A DNA stretch of 64,000 nt from Jeotgalibacillus malaysiensis (lineage in GTDB: Bacteria > Bacillota > Bacilli > Bacillales > Jeotgalibacillaceae): positions 1,534,501 through 1,598,500 of the forward strand of contig CP009416.1 in the NCBI GenBank assembly GCA_000818095.1. Direction: 5' to 3'. Positions 15,343-46,612 of this stretch are shown here, piece after piece. Numbering within the stretch: position 1 is the first letter of the stretch; each line of letters begins with the position of its first letter. The position numbers and the translations under genes were made by a program. The notes below the pieces were generated by a model. It saw only the letters and a list, made by a program, of their open reading frames with translations. It had not been told where the DNA came from and searched no databases.

Positions 15343-15347
15343 GACAG

Positions 15348-15382
15348 AGGACTTCCGCATGAGTGGAAGTCTTTAATTTTTT
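15348..15382 (+). terminator. Terminator after rbgA
   Basis: GACTTCC (15350-15356) pairs with GGAAGTC (15365-15371) across an 8-nt loop, and TTTAATTTTTT follows. Confidence 0.8.
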
Positions 15383-15416: not shown

Positions 15417-16172
15417 ATGCGTACAATCAGCCAGATAAAGGAGATGCTTCAATCTCCTGATAAAGAACTGATACAAGCACTAAAAAAAGATGAAAGAAAA
15501 GGAGTGCAGCGGCTCCTTAAGTCCCATGAAAGTAAAATGCTTAAAGAAAAAGAACTGTTAAAACAGTTTAATGACATGCAAGCCTTTGAGCGGTCAGCTT
15601 TTGCTGCCGGGTATCAGCTAATTGCAGGTACGGATGAAGCCGGCAGAGGGCCACTTGCAGGACCTGTAGTGGCAGCGGCAGTCATCCTGCCTGAAGGCTT
15701 CTACCTGCCGGGGCTCAATGACTCAAAAAAGCTGAGCGAGAAAAAAAGAGAAAGCTTTTTTATGAAAATCATGGATCAGGCAAATGTGGGAGTCGGCATC
15801 ATTGAAGCAGAGGAAATAGACAGAATCAATATTTTAAATGCCTCAAAAAAAGCAATGATCGAAGCAATTGAACAATTAAACCCTGAACCGGATTATATAC
15901 TTGCAGACGCCGTTACGCTTGATATTAAAACAGCCCAGGAGTCAATTATTAAAGGTGACGCAAAAAGCGTCAGCATTGCAGCAGCCTCAGTAATTGCTAA
16001 AGTGACGCGTGACAGGCTGATGAAAGAGGCTGCTGAAAAATATCCGGGTTACGGCCTCGAAAAAAATGCGGGTTACGGTACAAAGGAGCATATTGGGGCG
16101 ATTAAGCGACTGGGGCTAACAGATGAGCACAGGCGGTCATTCGAACCGATTAAGTCTATGATTCATTCATAA
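15417..16172 (+). CDS. rnhB: Ribonuclease HII
   Basis: RNase HII cuts RNA in RNA-DNA hybrids and at single ribonucleotides in DNA. The 251-residue protein has an N-terminal extension of about 65 residues, as in Bacillus RNase HII. It then shows the metal-binding start of the catalytic domain, GTDEAGRGPLAGPV with Asp73 and Glu74, and a further conserved Asp164 in ILADAVTLD. ATG 15417 follows AGGTGA. The gene is 14 bp before ylqG. Confidence 0.96.
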   Translation: MRTISQIKEMLQSPDKELIQALKKDERKGVQRLLKSHESKMLKEKELLKQFNDMQAFERSAFAAGYQLIAGTDEAGRGPLAGPVVAAAVILPEGFYLPGLNDSKKLSEKKRESFFMKIMDQANVGVGIIEAEEIDRINILNASKKAMIEAIEQLNPEPDYILADAVTLDIKTAQESIIKGDAKSVSIAAASVIAKVTRDRLMKEAAEKYPGYGLEKNAGYGTKEHIGAIKRLGLTDEHRRSFEPIKSMIHS

Positions 16173-16186
16173 TAGGGGGTGGCACA

Positions 16187-17875
16187 GTGTCATCATTCAT
16201 TTCAGGTCAGTACCGGCAGGCAAATTCTCTTCCGCCTGAAAGACAGTTCACGCTGAAAGCTGGTCAAATTTTGCACGGTAAAGTATTAAAACAACTTGGA
16301 CATCAGCAGGTCGAGATACAGTTTGGCGGAAGAACACTTACAGCAGTTACTTCCGGAGGAATAAATGAAGGGGAATCAAGGTGGTTTCAGGTAGAAAGCA
16401 CCGGGAATCCTCCAGTGATTAAACCAGTCAGAAGTGACGGGTCGGGTAAGCCTGATATGCAGCAGATTTTGCAAAATGCCGGACTTGCAGGTAATAAAGA
16501 AGTAAGGGAACTGTTATCATCCATGATTCGCCTTCAGCAGCCTGTTACATCAGAGAAACTGACTGAAGCAGCTGCACTACTCAATAAATCAGCAGATAAA
16601 GCAGAAGGGCTTTCTGTGATCAAATGGATGGTCTCAAGGGATCTGCCGCTAAAAGATACGCTTTTTCAGCCTATTCTTTCAGCTAACAGAGGTCTTGCCG
16701 AGCCGATGAACGGATTACTTCAGCAGCTGCAAAGCCAATTGAAAACCTCAGGAGAACTCCCATTAAAACAAATGCTTCAGACTTTACAGGATCCCTACTC
16801 AAAGGTTACACAGGACCTTGCAATTCAAAAAGTTTTTGAGCGGCTGACAGGAGGAACCGCTGTCGAAAAAAATGAGGCGTTCAATGCATTAAAGCAAATG
16901 CAGATCTTACCAAAAGAAGCGACCTTATCCAATTGGTCAAACGGGTTAATAAGCGGTCACACCACTAAGGGGATTGAACAGTTAATCAAATCACTCGCAG
17001 CACTTCCACAAAATCAGACCGTCCAGCAGCAGATCAGCGAACTTCAAATCGCTTTAAAAGGATTACAGCCGGGTGCATCACAACAGGCTGCTGAAGCTGT
17101 TATTAAAGGTCAGCAGCTGCTTTCTAGTATTAGTCCTCAATCACACCTTTTAAGCTTGCAGGCGCTTCAAATACAGCAGTCTAACACTGTAAGGCCCCAG
17201 GTCTTTATGCAGGCATTGGGTGAAGTGCAGCAATTAATTGGTCAGCACACAAACTCTGTATCGCTTCAGTTGATGATAAAAGAAATTGTTCAGAAGATGG
17301 GAAGCGATTTTGAAGCGCGTTTATTAAACACAACAAATCCTGCTTCAGCTGCTTTAAATATCAAAGCTCAGCTTCAGGCACTTATTGATACAGCAGGAAC
17401 GCCTCTACAGACAAGAGATACTGCAGAACAGCTTATAAACAGGCTTAATGGTATGCAGCTTTTATCAGCTGATAACGGACCACAGCAGCAAATACTGATG
17501 CAGTTTCCGCTTCAATTAGGAGAAACCAATACAGATGTTATGATGAAAATGAATGGCCGTAAAAAAAGTGATGGTTCACTTGACCCGGATCATGTAAGAG
17601 TGTTGTTTTATCTCACACTTGGCACTTTAAAAGAAAGCATTATTGATATGAATGTACAAAACCGGATTGTCTCGCTCGATATTTATAATGAACATGAACA
17701 TCTTGAACAGATAGCTAAGCCGTTCATTCCTGCTCTGCAAACAGCGCTGGATCAGACAGGATATACTTTTTCATCTGTTAAATTTCACAGTACTAAAGAC
17801 GTAGATCCCCCGATACTAAATCCTGCAGAGGATGCGCTATCATCTGCTTATCATAAGGTGGATATTAAAATATGA
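16187..17875 (+). CDS. ylqG: YlqG, FliK-like protein of unknown function
   Basis: This 562-residue protein corresponds to the YlqG family located between rnhB and ylqH in Bacillales; its role is not established. It is rich in Gln and Leu, with no signal peptide or membrane span. A long helical and low-complexity middle (about 90-430) precedes a compact C-terminal domain (about 471-545), where VRVLFYLTLGTLKESIIDMN and later PFIPALQTALDQTGY resemble the hook-length-control domain of FliK in layout. The start is a GTG at 16187 after AGGGGGTGG. It overlaps ylqH by 4 bp. The FliK resemblance is my inference from reading both sequences in this window. Confidence 0.75.
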   Translation: MSSFISGQYRQANSLPPERQFTLKAGQILHGKVLKQLGHQQVEIQFGGRTLTAVTSGGINEGESRWFQVESTGNPPVIKPVRSDGSGKPDMQQILQNAGLAGNKEVRELLSSMIRLQQPVTSEKLTEAAALLNKSADKAEGLSVIKWMVSRDLPLKDTLFQPILSANRGLAEPMNGLLQQLQSQLKTSGELPLKQMLQTLQDPYSKVTQDLAIQKVFERLTGGTAVEKNEAFNALKQMQILPKEATLSNWSNGLISGHTTKGIEQLIKSLAALPQNQTVQQQISELQIALKGLQPGASQQAAEAVIKGQQLLSSISPQSHLLSLQALQIQQSNTVRPQVFMQALGEVQQLIGQHTNSVSLQLMIKEIVQKMGSDFEARLLNTTNPASAALNIKAQLQALIDTAGTPLQTRDTAEQLINRLNGMQLLSADNGPQQQILMQFPLQLGETNTDVMMKMNGRKKSDGSLDPDHVRVLFYLTLGTLKESIIDMNVQNRIVSLDIYNEHEHLEQIAKPFIPALQTALDQTGYTFSSVKFHSTKDVDPPILNPAEDALSSAYHKVDIKI

Positions 17876-18141
17876 AACAGCATAAAAGACTTGAAGCCGT
17901 AGCTTTGTCTTATCAATCAGAAACTGAAACGGCGCCTGTAGTCAAAGCAAAAGGTAAAGGGAAAATTGCCGAATCCATTATAGAAAAAGCAAAAGCCAAT
18001 GATGTACCGATCCAGCAGGATGAATCACTTGTTGAGCTCCTTAGTCAGCTGGAATTAAACGAGACGATTCCTGATGAATTGTATCAGGCAGTGGCAGAGG
18101 TATTTGCTTTTATCTACCGGGTGGATCAGCATAAAAAATAA
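17872..18141 (+). CDS. ylqH: YlqH, free-standing FlhB C-terminal-domain homologue
   Basis: This 89-residue protein aligns along its length with the end of the window's own FlhB (about residues 290-359). Shared features are the VVxAKGxG...I...A..NDVP region, a short gap, then IPxELYQAVAEVFAFIYRV against IPEEFFKAVAEILAYVYRI. It lacks membrane spans and the self-cleaving NPTH motif. Related stand-alone proteins (FlhX in Helicobacter) can replace the FlhB C-terminal half. It overlaps ylqG by 4 bp, so the two are made together. Function here is unknown. Confidence 0.85.
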   Translation: MKQHKRLEAVALSYQSETETAPVVKAKGKGKIAESIIEKAKANDVPIQQDESLVELLSQLELNETIPDELYQAVAEVFAFIYRVDQHKK

Positions 18142-18187
18142 GAGTATTCAGACAATGATCGTTTTTTCACAATATCTCCTCAAATAG

Positions 18188-18216
18188 TAGACATCACCCT
18201 TTTCATTCTATACAAT
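18188..18216 (+). promoter_or_regulatory. Promoter of sucCD
   Basis: TAGACA (18188-18193) and TACAAT (18211-18216) are separated by 17 bp, 46 bp before the sucC start. Confidence 0.6.
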
Positions 18217-18261
18217 GAAAGCGCAGTCTATTTTCAAAAGAGTTTGATAGGAGGATGGAAC

Positions 18262-36318: not shown

Positions 36319-36351
36319 GAACACGTTAATTGAAAGGAGGTGAAAGAAGAA

Positions 36352-37578
36352 TTGATCGGACAAATTACGATGCAGGCGATACAGCCGTCCCAGCAGCTTG
36401 GAAGCGTCAGGGAGAGTAGTGGATCGAAAAATTTATTTGGTGCAATGCTTCTGCAGGCTGGAGGATCAGACTTTCAGATAAATGAAGCTGAACTTAGCGA
36501 AATTGAAGTGCTGATGGAACAGCTGTTAACTGCAGTTGAATCTGAAGACTTTTCATCGTTTTTAAAAGCAGCAGGAGAAGCAGATCCTGCAGTTAAACAG
36601 ATGTTTCTTCTGTTTGATGAAAAAGAATTGATGAACTTAACGGTGCCGGAGCTATTGCTCGCTGCTGGTGTAGGCGAAGAAATCGTTGAAAAAGCAGTCA
36701 ATGAAAATATATCTGATCCTGCATTATTGCTGCAGCAGATATTGACTGGTGAAGCAGAAGATCAGCCTGACCAACTGCAGCTTCAGACGACACTGGCGGA
36801 AATTCAACAGATAGCTAAAAGTGAACAAGTGATCAAAAGTGATCAGCAACCCAGGCAGCTGATTGTGCATGAAGATCTTGCGAAGCTGGTTTTATTATCA
36901 AAAGGACTCTCAATACTTGATCAAAAAAAGACCGGAAGCACTGAGAAGAATTACCTGCTGCAAAATGTGTCTGAAGTGATGGAAACCATCCAGACAATTT
37001 TTAAAAACGCAGTACGGGATCTTGAAGCTCCAAAGCAGGTTGAAAACTCAAAGCAGCATGTACTGCCTGAAGTGATAAAAAGTGAGCAGGGCATACTGAA
37101 CCTGCAGTCATTACAGCTTCAATCCGGACCGGTGAAATGGTCACTTCAACAGCCATTAAGGCAGGCCGATCCGTCACAGCAGCTGATGGAACAGTTCCAG
37201 CAGGTCATGCAAAAAGCGGGATTTGGCAAGGTAAATGGAACTGAAAAGCTGATGATCCGACTTCAGCCGGAACATCTTGGAACACTGAAGATAGAGCTGC
37301 TGCAAAAAGACGGAATGATGACAGCGAGAATTGTCGCTTCAACAGCCGTTGCAAAAGAAATGATCGACTCGCAGTTGAATCAGTTAAGGCAATCATTTAA
37401 CACTCAGAACCTTCAGGTGGACAAGATAGAGGTTGCCCAGGCAGAAACGACTGAGAACAGGTTGAATAAAGAGAGTGACAGTCAGTCGCGCGAACAGAGA
37501 GAGCATCAGCAATCACATGACCAGGAAGACAATGAAGAACAATCATTCCAAGACATATTCCTGAATATTGAGGTGTAA
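36352..37578 (+). CDS. fliK: FliK, hook-length control protein
   Basis: FliK measures hook length and switches export from hook to filament subunits by contacting FlhB. The 408-residue Gln- and Glu-rich protein is poorly conserved except for the C-terminal domain near 290-370, with LMIRLQPEHLGTLKIELLQKDGMMTARI...AKEMIDSQLNQLRQSF. I chose TTG 36352 because the GTG at 36340 lies inside the Shine-Dalgarno AAAGGAGGTGA. The tail is very hydrophilic (SDSQSREQREHQQSHDQEDN). Confidence 0.92.
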   Translation: MIGQITMQAIQPSQQLGSVRESSGSKNLFGAMLLQAGGSDFQINEAELSEIEVLMEQLLTAVESEDFSSFLKAAGEADPAVKQMFLLFDEKELMNLTVPELLLAAGVGEEIVEKAVNENISDPALLLQQILTGEAEDQPDQLQLQTTLAEIQQIAKSEQVIKSDQQPRQLIVHEDLAKLVLLSKGLSILDQKKTGSTEKNYLLQNVSEVMETIQTIFKNAVRDLEAPKQVENSKQHVLPEVIKSEQGILNLQSLQLQSGPVKWSLQQPLRQADPSQQLMEQFQQVMQKAGFGKVNGTEKLMIRLQPEHLGTLKIELLQKDGMMTARIVASTAVAKEMIDSQLNQLRQSFNTQNLQVDKIEVAQAETTENRLNKESDSQSREQREHQQSHDQEDNEEQSFQDIFLNIEV

Positions 37579-45532: not shown

Positions 45533-46612
45533 ATGAGATTGAGATTGGATCTTCAGTATTTCGCAGGCGAAAAAACTGAAAAAGCCACTCCTAAAAAAAG
45601 ACTGGATTCACGTAAAAAAGGGGAAGTTGCAAAAAGTCAGGATATTAATACTGCATTTATTCTTTTCAGTGTATTTCTGTTTTTATTCTTTGCAGGAAGC
45701 TGGTTTGAAGAAAGAATGCTGAATCTTGTTGCAGTCCCTTTAATGGATTATATTAAGCGTCCTGTAACGTCTGACACGCTTATACTCGTGTATGGTGAAA
45801 TGCTGACGGAGGTTGCATGGATTGTGCTGCCGATTATGGCAGTTGCAGCGCTTGGTGGGATTGTCGGGAATTATCTGCAGATTGGTTTCTTAATCTCTGC
45901 AGACCCTCTGAAGCCTAAGCTTTCAAAGCTTGATCCGATTAAAGGATTAAAGAGAATTTTTTCAGCCAGAGCACTCGTTGAACTGGCAAAATCAGTGCTG
46001 AAGATCTCACTCGTTGGAATGACAACGTTCCTTGTACTGTGGTTCAGTATTGAAGATGTGTTAGAACTTTCATTACTGCCCGTAACATCCACCCTTCAGG
46101 TGGCAGGCAGCCTGACTGTTCAGATGGGTCTGTTCGCTTCAGGACTGCTTATCATACTGGCAGTGCTTGATTATCTTTATCAGAAATATGATTTTGAAAA
46201 AAATATAAGGATGTCAAAACAGGACCTTAAAGATGAATATAAGAACACGGAAGGTGACCCGCTGATCAAATCAAAAATTAAGCAGCGGCAAAGGGAGATG
46301 GCAATGAAACGGATGATGTCTGAAGTGCCGGATGCCGATGTTGTCATTACAAACCCGACTCACTATGCCATCGTTCTGAAATATAAAGATGGGGAATTTG
46401 ATGCGCCGGTTGTTGTTGCTAAAGGTGTTGATTTCCTCGCACAAAAAATTAAAACCATTGCAAAAGAGAATGACGTCATTGCAGTAGAAAACAGACCGCT
46501 TGCCAGAGCATTATACGATCAGGCAGAAATTGGTGATCCGATACCAGAGGAGTTTTTTAAAGCAGTCGCGGAGATTCTTGCTTATGTCTACAGAATAAAA
46601 AATAAAGTGTAA
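45533..46612 (+). CDS. flhB: FlhB, export switch protein
   Basis: FlhB switches export from rod/hook to filament substrates after self-cleavage. The 359-residue protein starts RLRLDLQYFAGEKTEKATPKKRLDSRKKGEVAKS. It has four membrane segments (about 30-215) and a cytoplasmic domain with the autocleavage motif NPTH at 274-277. Its last 70 residues are homologous to the separate ylqH product in this window. Confidence 0.97.
   Translation: MRLRLDLQYFAGEKTEKATPKKRLDSRKKGEVAKSQDINTAFILFSVFLFLFFAGSWFEERMLNLVAVPLMDYIKRPVTSDTLILVYGEMLTEVAWIVLPIMAVAALGGIVGNYLQIGFLISADPLKPKLSKLDPIKGLKRIFSARALVELAKSVLKISLVGMTTFLVLWFSIEDVLELSLLPVTSTLQVAGSLTVQMGLFASGLLIILAVLDYLYQKYDFEKNIRMSKQDLKDEYKNTEGDPLIKSKIKQRQREMAMKRMMSEVPDADVVITNPTHYAIVLKYKDGEFDAPVVVAKGVDFLAQKIKTIAKENDVIAVENRPLARALYDQAEIGDPIPEEFFKAVAEILAYVYRIKNKV

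Follow-up and report, generated by a model that had tools for sequence, protein, structure and literature searches.

How FliK switches flagellar export through the cleaved C-terminal domain of FlhB (FlhB-CC) is a long-standing question. For Salmonella, a 2026 study argues that the C-terminal domain of FliK (FliK-C) acts on FlhB-CC, and proposes that ejection of FlhB-CC flips the switch and that the last five residues of FliK engage, destabilise and eject it (PMC13344023). FliK-C is described, in a section of another paper, as a folded core that binds FlhB-C, followed by a disordered tail (PMC6972891). Against this background, the ylqG-ylqH locus of Jeotgalibacillus malaysiensis raises the question of why a FliK-like and an FlhB-C-like protein should be encoded together, among housekeeping genes, in a genome that also has a true fliK and a full-length flhB. 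We analyzed a stretch of 64,000 nucleotides around this locus (the window) together with the genomes of relatives. Among the genomes sampled, most of those with the flagellar export gate have the pair and those without the gate lack it, and we tentatively favor the view that it is a putative auxiliary module for flagellar export specificity.

The gene order in the window is rplS-lepB-ylqF-rnhB-ylqG-ylqH-sucC-sucD-dprA-topA, and a long flagellar operon with fliK and flhB lies downstream; the names of neighbors other than fliK and flhB were read off the sequence, not taken from family searches. Both frames of the pair are intact (Table 1). The sequence-only reading had correctly described the overlap of the two genes, the long, Gln-rich YlqG and the presence of full FliK and FlhB, except that the fliK frame is listed from a GTG at 36340 rather than 36352. 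Its description of the pair as free-standing outside the flagellar operon holds for this copy, but not for a second pair found within a flagellar late-gene cluster, nor for similar pairs elsewhere, both described below.

Table 1. Features of the ylqG-ylqH locus and comparison genes, in window coordinates.
Feature	Position	Strand	Description
rnhB	15417..16172	+	direct upstream neighbor of ylqG
ylqG	16187..17875	+	open reading frame call; GTG start at 16187; 562 aa, 11.4% Gln; FliK-like
N-terminal five-stranded beta domain (predicted)	16268..16426	+	YlqG residues 28-80; secondary structure of the model
FliK-C / T3S4-like switch domain (predicted)	17483..17791	+	YlqG residues 433-535; fold matches; Flg_hook in relatives
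YlqG C-terminal tail, KVDIKI	17855..17872	+	family GVDIRI-like; conserved D four from the end
ATGA shared by ylqG stop and ylqH start	17872..17875	+	4-bp overlap, conserved
ylqH	17872..18141	+	ATG start at 17872; 89 aa; FlhB C-terminal domain standing alone
fliK, true hook-length protein (comparison)	36340..37578	+	Flg_hook E 6.3e-17; frame from GTG
flhB, full length (comparison)	45533..46612	+	PF01312 1-335, E 2e-132; NPTH present

The overlap is not due to chance. It recurs in 30/30 order-level loci and in 69 of the 72 loci that could be parsed from a set of 80 named loci, the others having spacings of -8 (n = 1) and -19 (n = 1) or, in L072, having been parsed without an upstream frame; the two sets overlap, with seven identical YlqG proteins in both. 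The eight named loci missed by the YlqH pattern are all from Sporosarcina, where tblastn detects both genes. The surrounding housekeeping neighborhood is likewise conserved, with rnhB in 75/80 and sucC in 74/80 loci. A terminator-like hairpin of 12 pairs (15347-15374) lies between ylqF and rnhB, in a scan that yields 5 sites vs 4.3 in shuffles, and rnhB-ylqG-ylqH probably form one transcription unit. A window scan with one exact sigma-D-like pattern found no site upstream of ylqG; its two occurrences, at 17794 (within ylqG) and 51093, compare with at least two in 5/100 shuffles. The housekeeping setting and the lack of an exact sigma-D-like site do not suggest late timing for this copy. A computed RNA-element candidate has been placed at ylqH/sucC in B. 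subtilis, in a passage of PMC4448311; the corresponding gap here is 18142-18243. Long open frames surround YlqH in L204, L205 and L206, the three loci inspected for a natural ylqG-ylqH fusion, and none of them is one.

YlqH matches PF01312 only over profile positions 262-335 of 335 (E 3.9e-20) and lacks the N-terminal membrane domain of FlhB, in agreement with its initial description as a soluble FlhB-C homolog. The TIGR00789 model matches it with E 1.3e-31 and 108.6 bits, below the curated cut-off of 117.35, and its best solved relatives are the FlhB-C chains 3b1s and 3b0z (profile E 2.9e-18). When aligned with 21 FlhB sequences, YlqH begins at about the autocleavage site, whose P, T and H are missing, and follows FlhB-CC along its length, with a one-residue gap at the position equivalent to 321. 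The expected lack of the cleavage motif was borne out: PTH occurs in 0/71 parsed YlqH and in 1/30 of the overlapping set (L027), there at the C-terminal end, away from where cleavage would occur. The residues given in PMC13344023 for the hydrophobic early-substrate pocket are A286, P287, A341 and L344. At these positions YlqH has A in 58/71, P in 71/71, A (A341 equivalent) in 71/71 and F instead of L in 71/71 sequences. By sequence, YlqH is a soluble equivalent of FlhB-CC that is made 'already cut' and retains most of the early-substrate pocket.

The FliK-like nature of YlqG, put forward in the sequence-only reading, is more remote; it shows in relatives and in structure but not in the window sequence taken singly. 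Searched with the single window sequence, Flg_hook gave no match at E<=10, nor was there any informative family match, whereas the YlqG C-termini of relatives, each searched alone, matched Flg_hook in 16/28 cases (best E 1.8e-5, with matches up to E 1 counted); every other family matched at most one of the 28. Genome-wide, YlqG loci mostly fall under the curated Flg_hook cut-off and exceed it at three (G023, G024, G015); matches at loose thresholds also appear in control genomes without flagella. An AlphaFold2 model of whole YlqG (67 sequences) reached pLDDT 82.1 and pTM 0.76, and a Foldseek search with it placed 5cuk at rank 23 and 2rrl at rank 34, with no match at E<=0.001. Modeled alone (72 sequences; pLDDT 82.6, pTM 0.67), the last 185 residues had as their top two PDB matches FliK-C (2rrl, E 0.030) and PscP (5cuk, E 0.036), both with probability 1.00. 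An hhalign comparison with 30 local FliKs was in register over 64 columns with a weak score of 19.1, equaled in 2/100 column shuffles, and when the YlqG profile was run against PDB sequences, no hit fell below E 0.16 and none was flagellar. On the strength of the domain model and the matches of relatives, the C-terminal domain of YlqG is predicted to be a remote FliK switch (T3S4) domain.

The N-terminal beta domain of YlqG is perhaps a small OB/NfeD-like barrel, the small OB-type chains 3wwv and 2exd being among the Foldseek matches, and much of its middle is modeled as helices of fair to good confidence. YlqG proteins span 275-712 aa, compared with 580-1081 aa for YlqG2 of the second pair and 368-577 aa for FliK. 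The gene lies between rnhB and sucC, not among hook genes, and the true fliK sits in the flagellar operon. Separately, we noted weak Flg_hook matches (E 0.03-0.3) in frames of ~806-842 aa in many genomes (e.g. G057:C3:281090, G040:C13:56634), perhaps by chance, and a YlqG ortholog of Bacillus velezensis (L259:2301-4004) that is annotated 'glycosyl transferase', apparently a misannotation, beside a YlqH annotated as FlhB-like. A ylqG P457Q change is listed, in part of PMC11523185, among the mutations of evolved B. subtilis clones that also carry other mutations.

After a variable linker, YlqG typically ends in G-V-D-hydrophobic-basic-I/V at its extreme C-terminus, and this conserved tail is new here. 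By a pattern composed after the tails had been inspected, its D is present in 71/71 YlqG and 17/17 YlqG2, and the preceding residues vary freely. In the overlapping set the D is kept in 29/30 (N in L021), and two sequences of that set end in A. The tail is also present in two second-copy loci without gene overlap (gaps +9 and +11), and so is not dictated by the overlap. Of three distant loci, L204 and L205 have a version of the tail and L206 (in G066) has none.

The coincidence of the gene border with the FlhB autocleavage site raises a further idea, namely that the YlqG tail may supply in trans the FlhB strand that precedes NPTH (ADVVI before TN|PTH), which would make YlqG-YlqH an FlhB-C split over two genes. 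If so, the pair would permanently fix a strand-exchanged arrangement, the one by which FliK extracts FlhB-CC, and the same swap would explain the ejection of FlhB-CC by FliK's last residues. We regard this as rather unlikely. In a comparison of the YlqG tail with the pre-NPTH strand, the D-on-D register came 2nd of 20 offsets (+1.85), the best (+2.31) falling on the next strand of FlhB, and for the YlqG2 tail it came 4th (-0.24).

The distribution of the pair ties it to flagella. Among 250 genomes of the class, PF01312 exceeds its cut-off (FlhB) in 182; of the 68 without FlhB, three give weak hits to PF01312 (1e-4 to 6e-4) that stay under the cut-off. With the YlqH profile (E<=1e-10), the 182 FlhB genomes show at least two FlhB-C matches in 163, one in 18 and none in 1, with three or more in 38 genomes; the figure of 163/182 comes from a manual count of the matches in each genome, and in some genomes the second match was counted without inspection. 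A search with a YlqG C-terminal profile (E<=0.001) detected YlqG in 138 genomes, every one of them belonging to the 163. That leaves 25 without a YlqG match, 20 of which come from a single family; L205 and L206 belong to these 25, and there the frames upstream of YlqH have weak Flg_hook matches (E 0.0003 and 0.005). The sequence-only reading had named retention of the pair in many species without flagellar genes, combined with no predicted YlqG-YlqH contact, as evidence against its proposal; neither the FlhB-C part at E<=1e-10 nor YlqG occurs in any of the 68 FlhB-less genomes. The co-occurrence of the extra FlhB-C with FlhB has a Fisher p of 3.5e-44, a value that ignores kinship, and in at least three families whose other members have the pair, some genomes (G101; G139; G103 and G146) lack both the pair and FlhB.

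The pair is nonetheless dispensable, being missing in 19/182 flagellated genomes. It is absent altogether from the flagellated G167, G187, G275 and G284 (one genus) and G084, G102, G117, G132 and G145 (family f71); such genomes are natural knock-outs, useful for comparing FliK, FlhB and FliS. Among 61 relatives' genomes, including that of the window, YlqG was matched in 54; of the other seven, two have no FlhB-C match at all and five are flagellated, with a ylq-locus YlqH in 0/5 and, in G003, the second pair only. A mirror-tree analysis (57/80 loci usable) gave a YlqG-YlqH partial correlation of 0.256, with 0/2000 permutations as high; the corresponding YlqG-YlqF value of 0.69 means that this correlation is not specific.

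The genome of the window encodes a third FlhB-C at C1:2642769, ylqH2, with a 4-bp overlap with ylqG2 (746 aa). This second pair stands in the order flgM-ylqG2-ylqH2-fliS-flagellin-yaaR-flgN-flgK-flgL-yviE-fliW, with names read off the sequence and FliS confirmed by its Pfam profile. Across 17 of the 20 genomes with a second copy (G006, G007 and G011 being left out), fliS and flagellin follow directly in 16/17 loci from 12 families, the window genome among them and G186 being the exception; yaaR is present in 15/17, and the 4-bp overlap in 15/17 ylqG2. G003 provides an 18th locus with the same gene order. That a second pair precedes FliS and flagellin is a new observation. FliS is present twice in 16/17 genomes that carry the second pair, and once in each of three genomes that lack it. 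YlqH2 has A in 8/18, P in 18/18, A in 18/18 and L in 16/18 at the pocket positions. In a tree of FlhB-CC, YlqH and YlqH2 (21, 33 and 18 rows), the YlqH2 and FlhB rows each fall on one side of a branch (100/100); YlqH is not a clade there, in a tree with long branches that come together, few columns and a bootstrap that had yet to settle. The tree is consistent with a single origin of the second pair. As further observations, in different families the second pair and the flagellin beside it are accompanied by a divergent second FliS (e.g. L035:6183-6635), and in L209 (G192:C3, 5847-8584) two YlqH2 flank a single ylqG2, the first without a detected FliK-like partner upstream.

Similar pairs in other phyla indicate that this architecture is broad. 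The search there covered plasmid records, of which 23 were found. A Clostridia record has the order ylqF-rnhB-FliK-like-FlhB-C-yraN-like with a gap of +3, its FliK-like frame scoring 29.4 vs the Flg_hook cut-off of 29.8. Cupriavidus megaplasmids (L257, L260, L262) carry fliD-fliS-fliT-FliK-like-FlhB-C with the 4-bp overlap in 3/3 examined of 4 found; the FliS, FliT, Flg_hook and FlhB-C assignments were verified with Pfam for L257 alone. In Pseudomonas L261, a 'FliK' and an 'EscU/YscU/HrcU family switch protein' lie near ccmA with a 4-bp overlap, both over the Pfam cut-off. The Cupriavidus and Pseudomonas pairs with the identical overlap are also new here, and the pair thus adjoins fliS in two phyla. 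The GVDxRI tail was absent from the Clostridia, Cupriavidus and Pseudomonas pairs examined.

YlqG and YlqH correspond to the FliK-C and FlhB-CC of the switch but have no membrane anchor, and they are most simply read as a complex of that type that would act on the flagellar gate. On our tentative proposal, YlqG would bind YlqH in the manner put forward for FliK-C and FlhB-CC, using its tail for part of the contact, and the complex would deliver YlqH to, or withhold it from, the export gate. There, YlqH would take or contest the seat of FlhB-CC, and a gate so modified would disfavor rod and hook substrates and favor or stabilize late (flagellin) export; the second pair may do likewise for its own FliS and flagellin. 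Because the YlqH pocket keeps P and A but has Phe for Leu, the gate piece is expected to be modified against rod and hook substrates, an argument limited to YlqH, since YlqH2 mostly keeps the Leu. That copy 2 goes with a second FliS and a flagellin points to flagellin-specific export control.

A rather unlikely alternative is that YlqH is a replacement for lost, trimmed or uncleaved FlhB-CC that restores early (rod and hook) export for the next round, with YlqG as its chaperone or loader. The lengthwise alignment of YlqH to FlhB-CC from near the cleavage site would fit this role, as would the precedent of FlhX of H. pylori, reportedly a 'spare' permitting export, which could mean that the effect runs in the opposite direction. 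The naming of flhX-fliK together outside the main flagellar cluster of Nitratiruptor, in a passage of PMC9321776, speaks for it as well. However, the invariant Leu-to-Phe change lies in the early-substrate pocket and copy 2 keeps the company of late, not early, genes, and together these lead us to favor a late-mode gate piece over an early-export spare.

We also consider it unlikely that the pair is a cytoplasmic decoy, which the sequence-only reading had offered alongside a second specificity module. In that role YlqH, with YlqG, would bind early substrates or FliK through its pocket and so buffer export or the switch while always staying out of the gate. A decoy would account for the P and A retained in every YlqH and YlqH2, the missing membrane part and the housekeeping neighborhood of the ylq copy, but not readily for the Phe found in all 71 YlqH, and it leaves unexplained both the FliK-like partner and why copy 2 goes with FliS and flagellin.

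That YlqG is a second ruler, exported like FliK to gauge a different length while YlqH serves it alone as switch partner, is very unlikely; much of its middle is predicted to be helical and not an open, flexible ruler, whereas the FliK-C fold and a size like or above that of FliK would be in keeping with it. By locus number, Cj0849c adjoins flhX (Cj0848c), of which we take it to be the FliK-like partner. The N-terminus of Cj0849c (first 108 bp) drove flagellar export of a reporter, as reported in part of PMC2764114, which also favors a ruler, and if Cj0849c is FliK-like, such partners may be secreted. Finally, re-use outside flagella in some housekeeping role near rnhB and sucC, which the sequence-only reading had entertained and which the conserved neighborhood might suggest, is highly improbable and was rejected, there being no carrier among the 68 FlhB-less genomes, while in several families where the pair is otherwise present the members without it also lack FlhB.

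Among the open-access papers listed by our searches, we found no functional study of the ylqG-ylqH pair; those naming ylqH do no more than list it, as among the type III secretion genes of Aliarcobacter in PMC9235176. Most flagellated Bacilli sampled have this natural, soluble FliK-C/FlhB-CC pair, some of them two, which offers a convenient target for structure determination and deletion. The auxiliary export module proposed here would also give a role to genes that so far have none or that are even labeled 'glycosyl transferase'.

Among known systems, the FliK switch domain (Flg_hook, PF02120) and the T3S4 domains of SctP and PscP resemble YlqG in predicted fold, in C-terminal position and in a poorly ordered tail with a conserved end. 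Unlike FliK, YlqG has no direct Pfam match (window copy), has a predicted N-terminal beta domain and is encoded away from hook genes, and it coexists with a true FliK. The Cupriavidus cluster shares with the Bacilli second pair its place beside fliS, its architecture and its overlap, but differs in phylum and in having no tail motif; the Pseudomonas L261 pair has the same FliK-like-then-FlhB-C-like order and 4-bp overlap in another neighborhood and without the tail. The nearest precedent for ylqG-ylqH is FlhX. Like YlqH, FlhX (TIGR00789, flhB_rel) is a lone FlhB C-terminal domain without membrane part or NPTH that occurs with flagella, although YlqH scores under the curated cut-off. FlhX is counted among export proteins in passages of PMC9321776, PMC10746217 and, for Leptospira, PMC4758666, and flagellated Actinobacteria without FlhX, mentioned in PMC10746217, are in line with an accessory role. 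The FlhX passages mention no FliK-like partner, except for the flhX-fliK of PMC9321776, whereas YlqH has YlqG.
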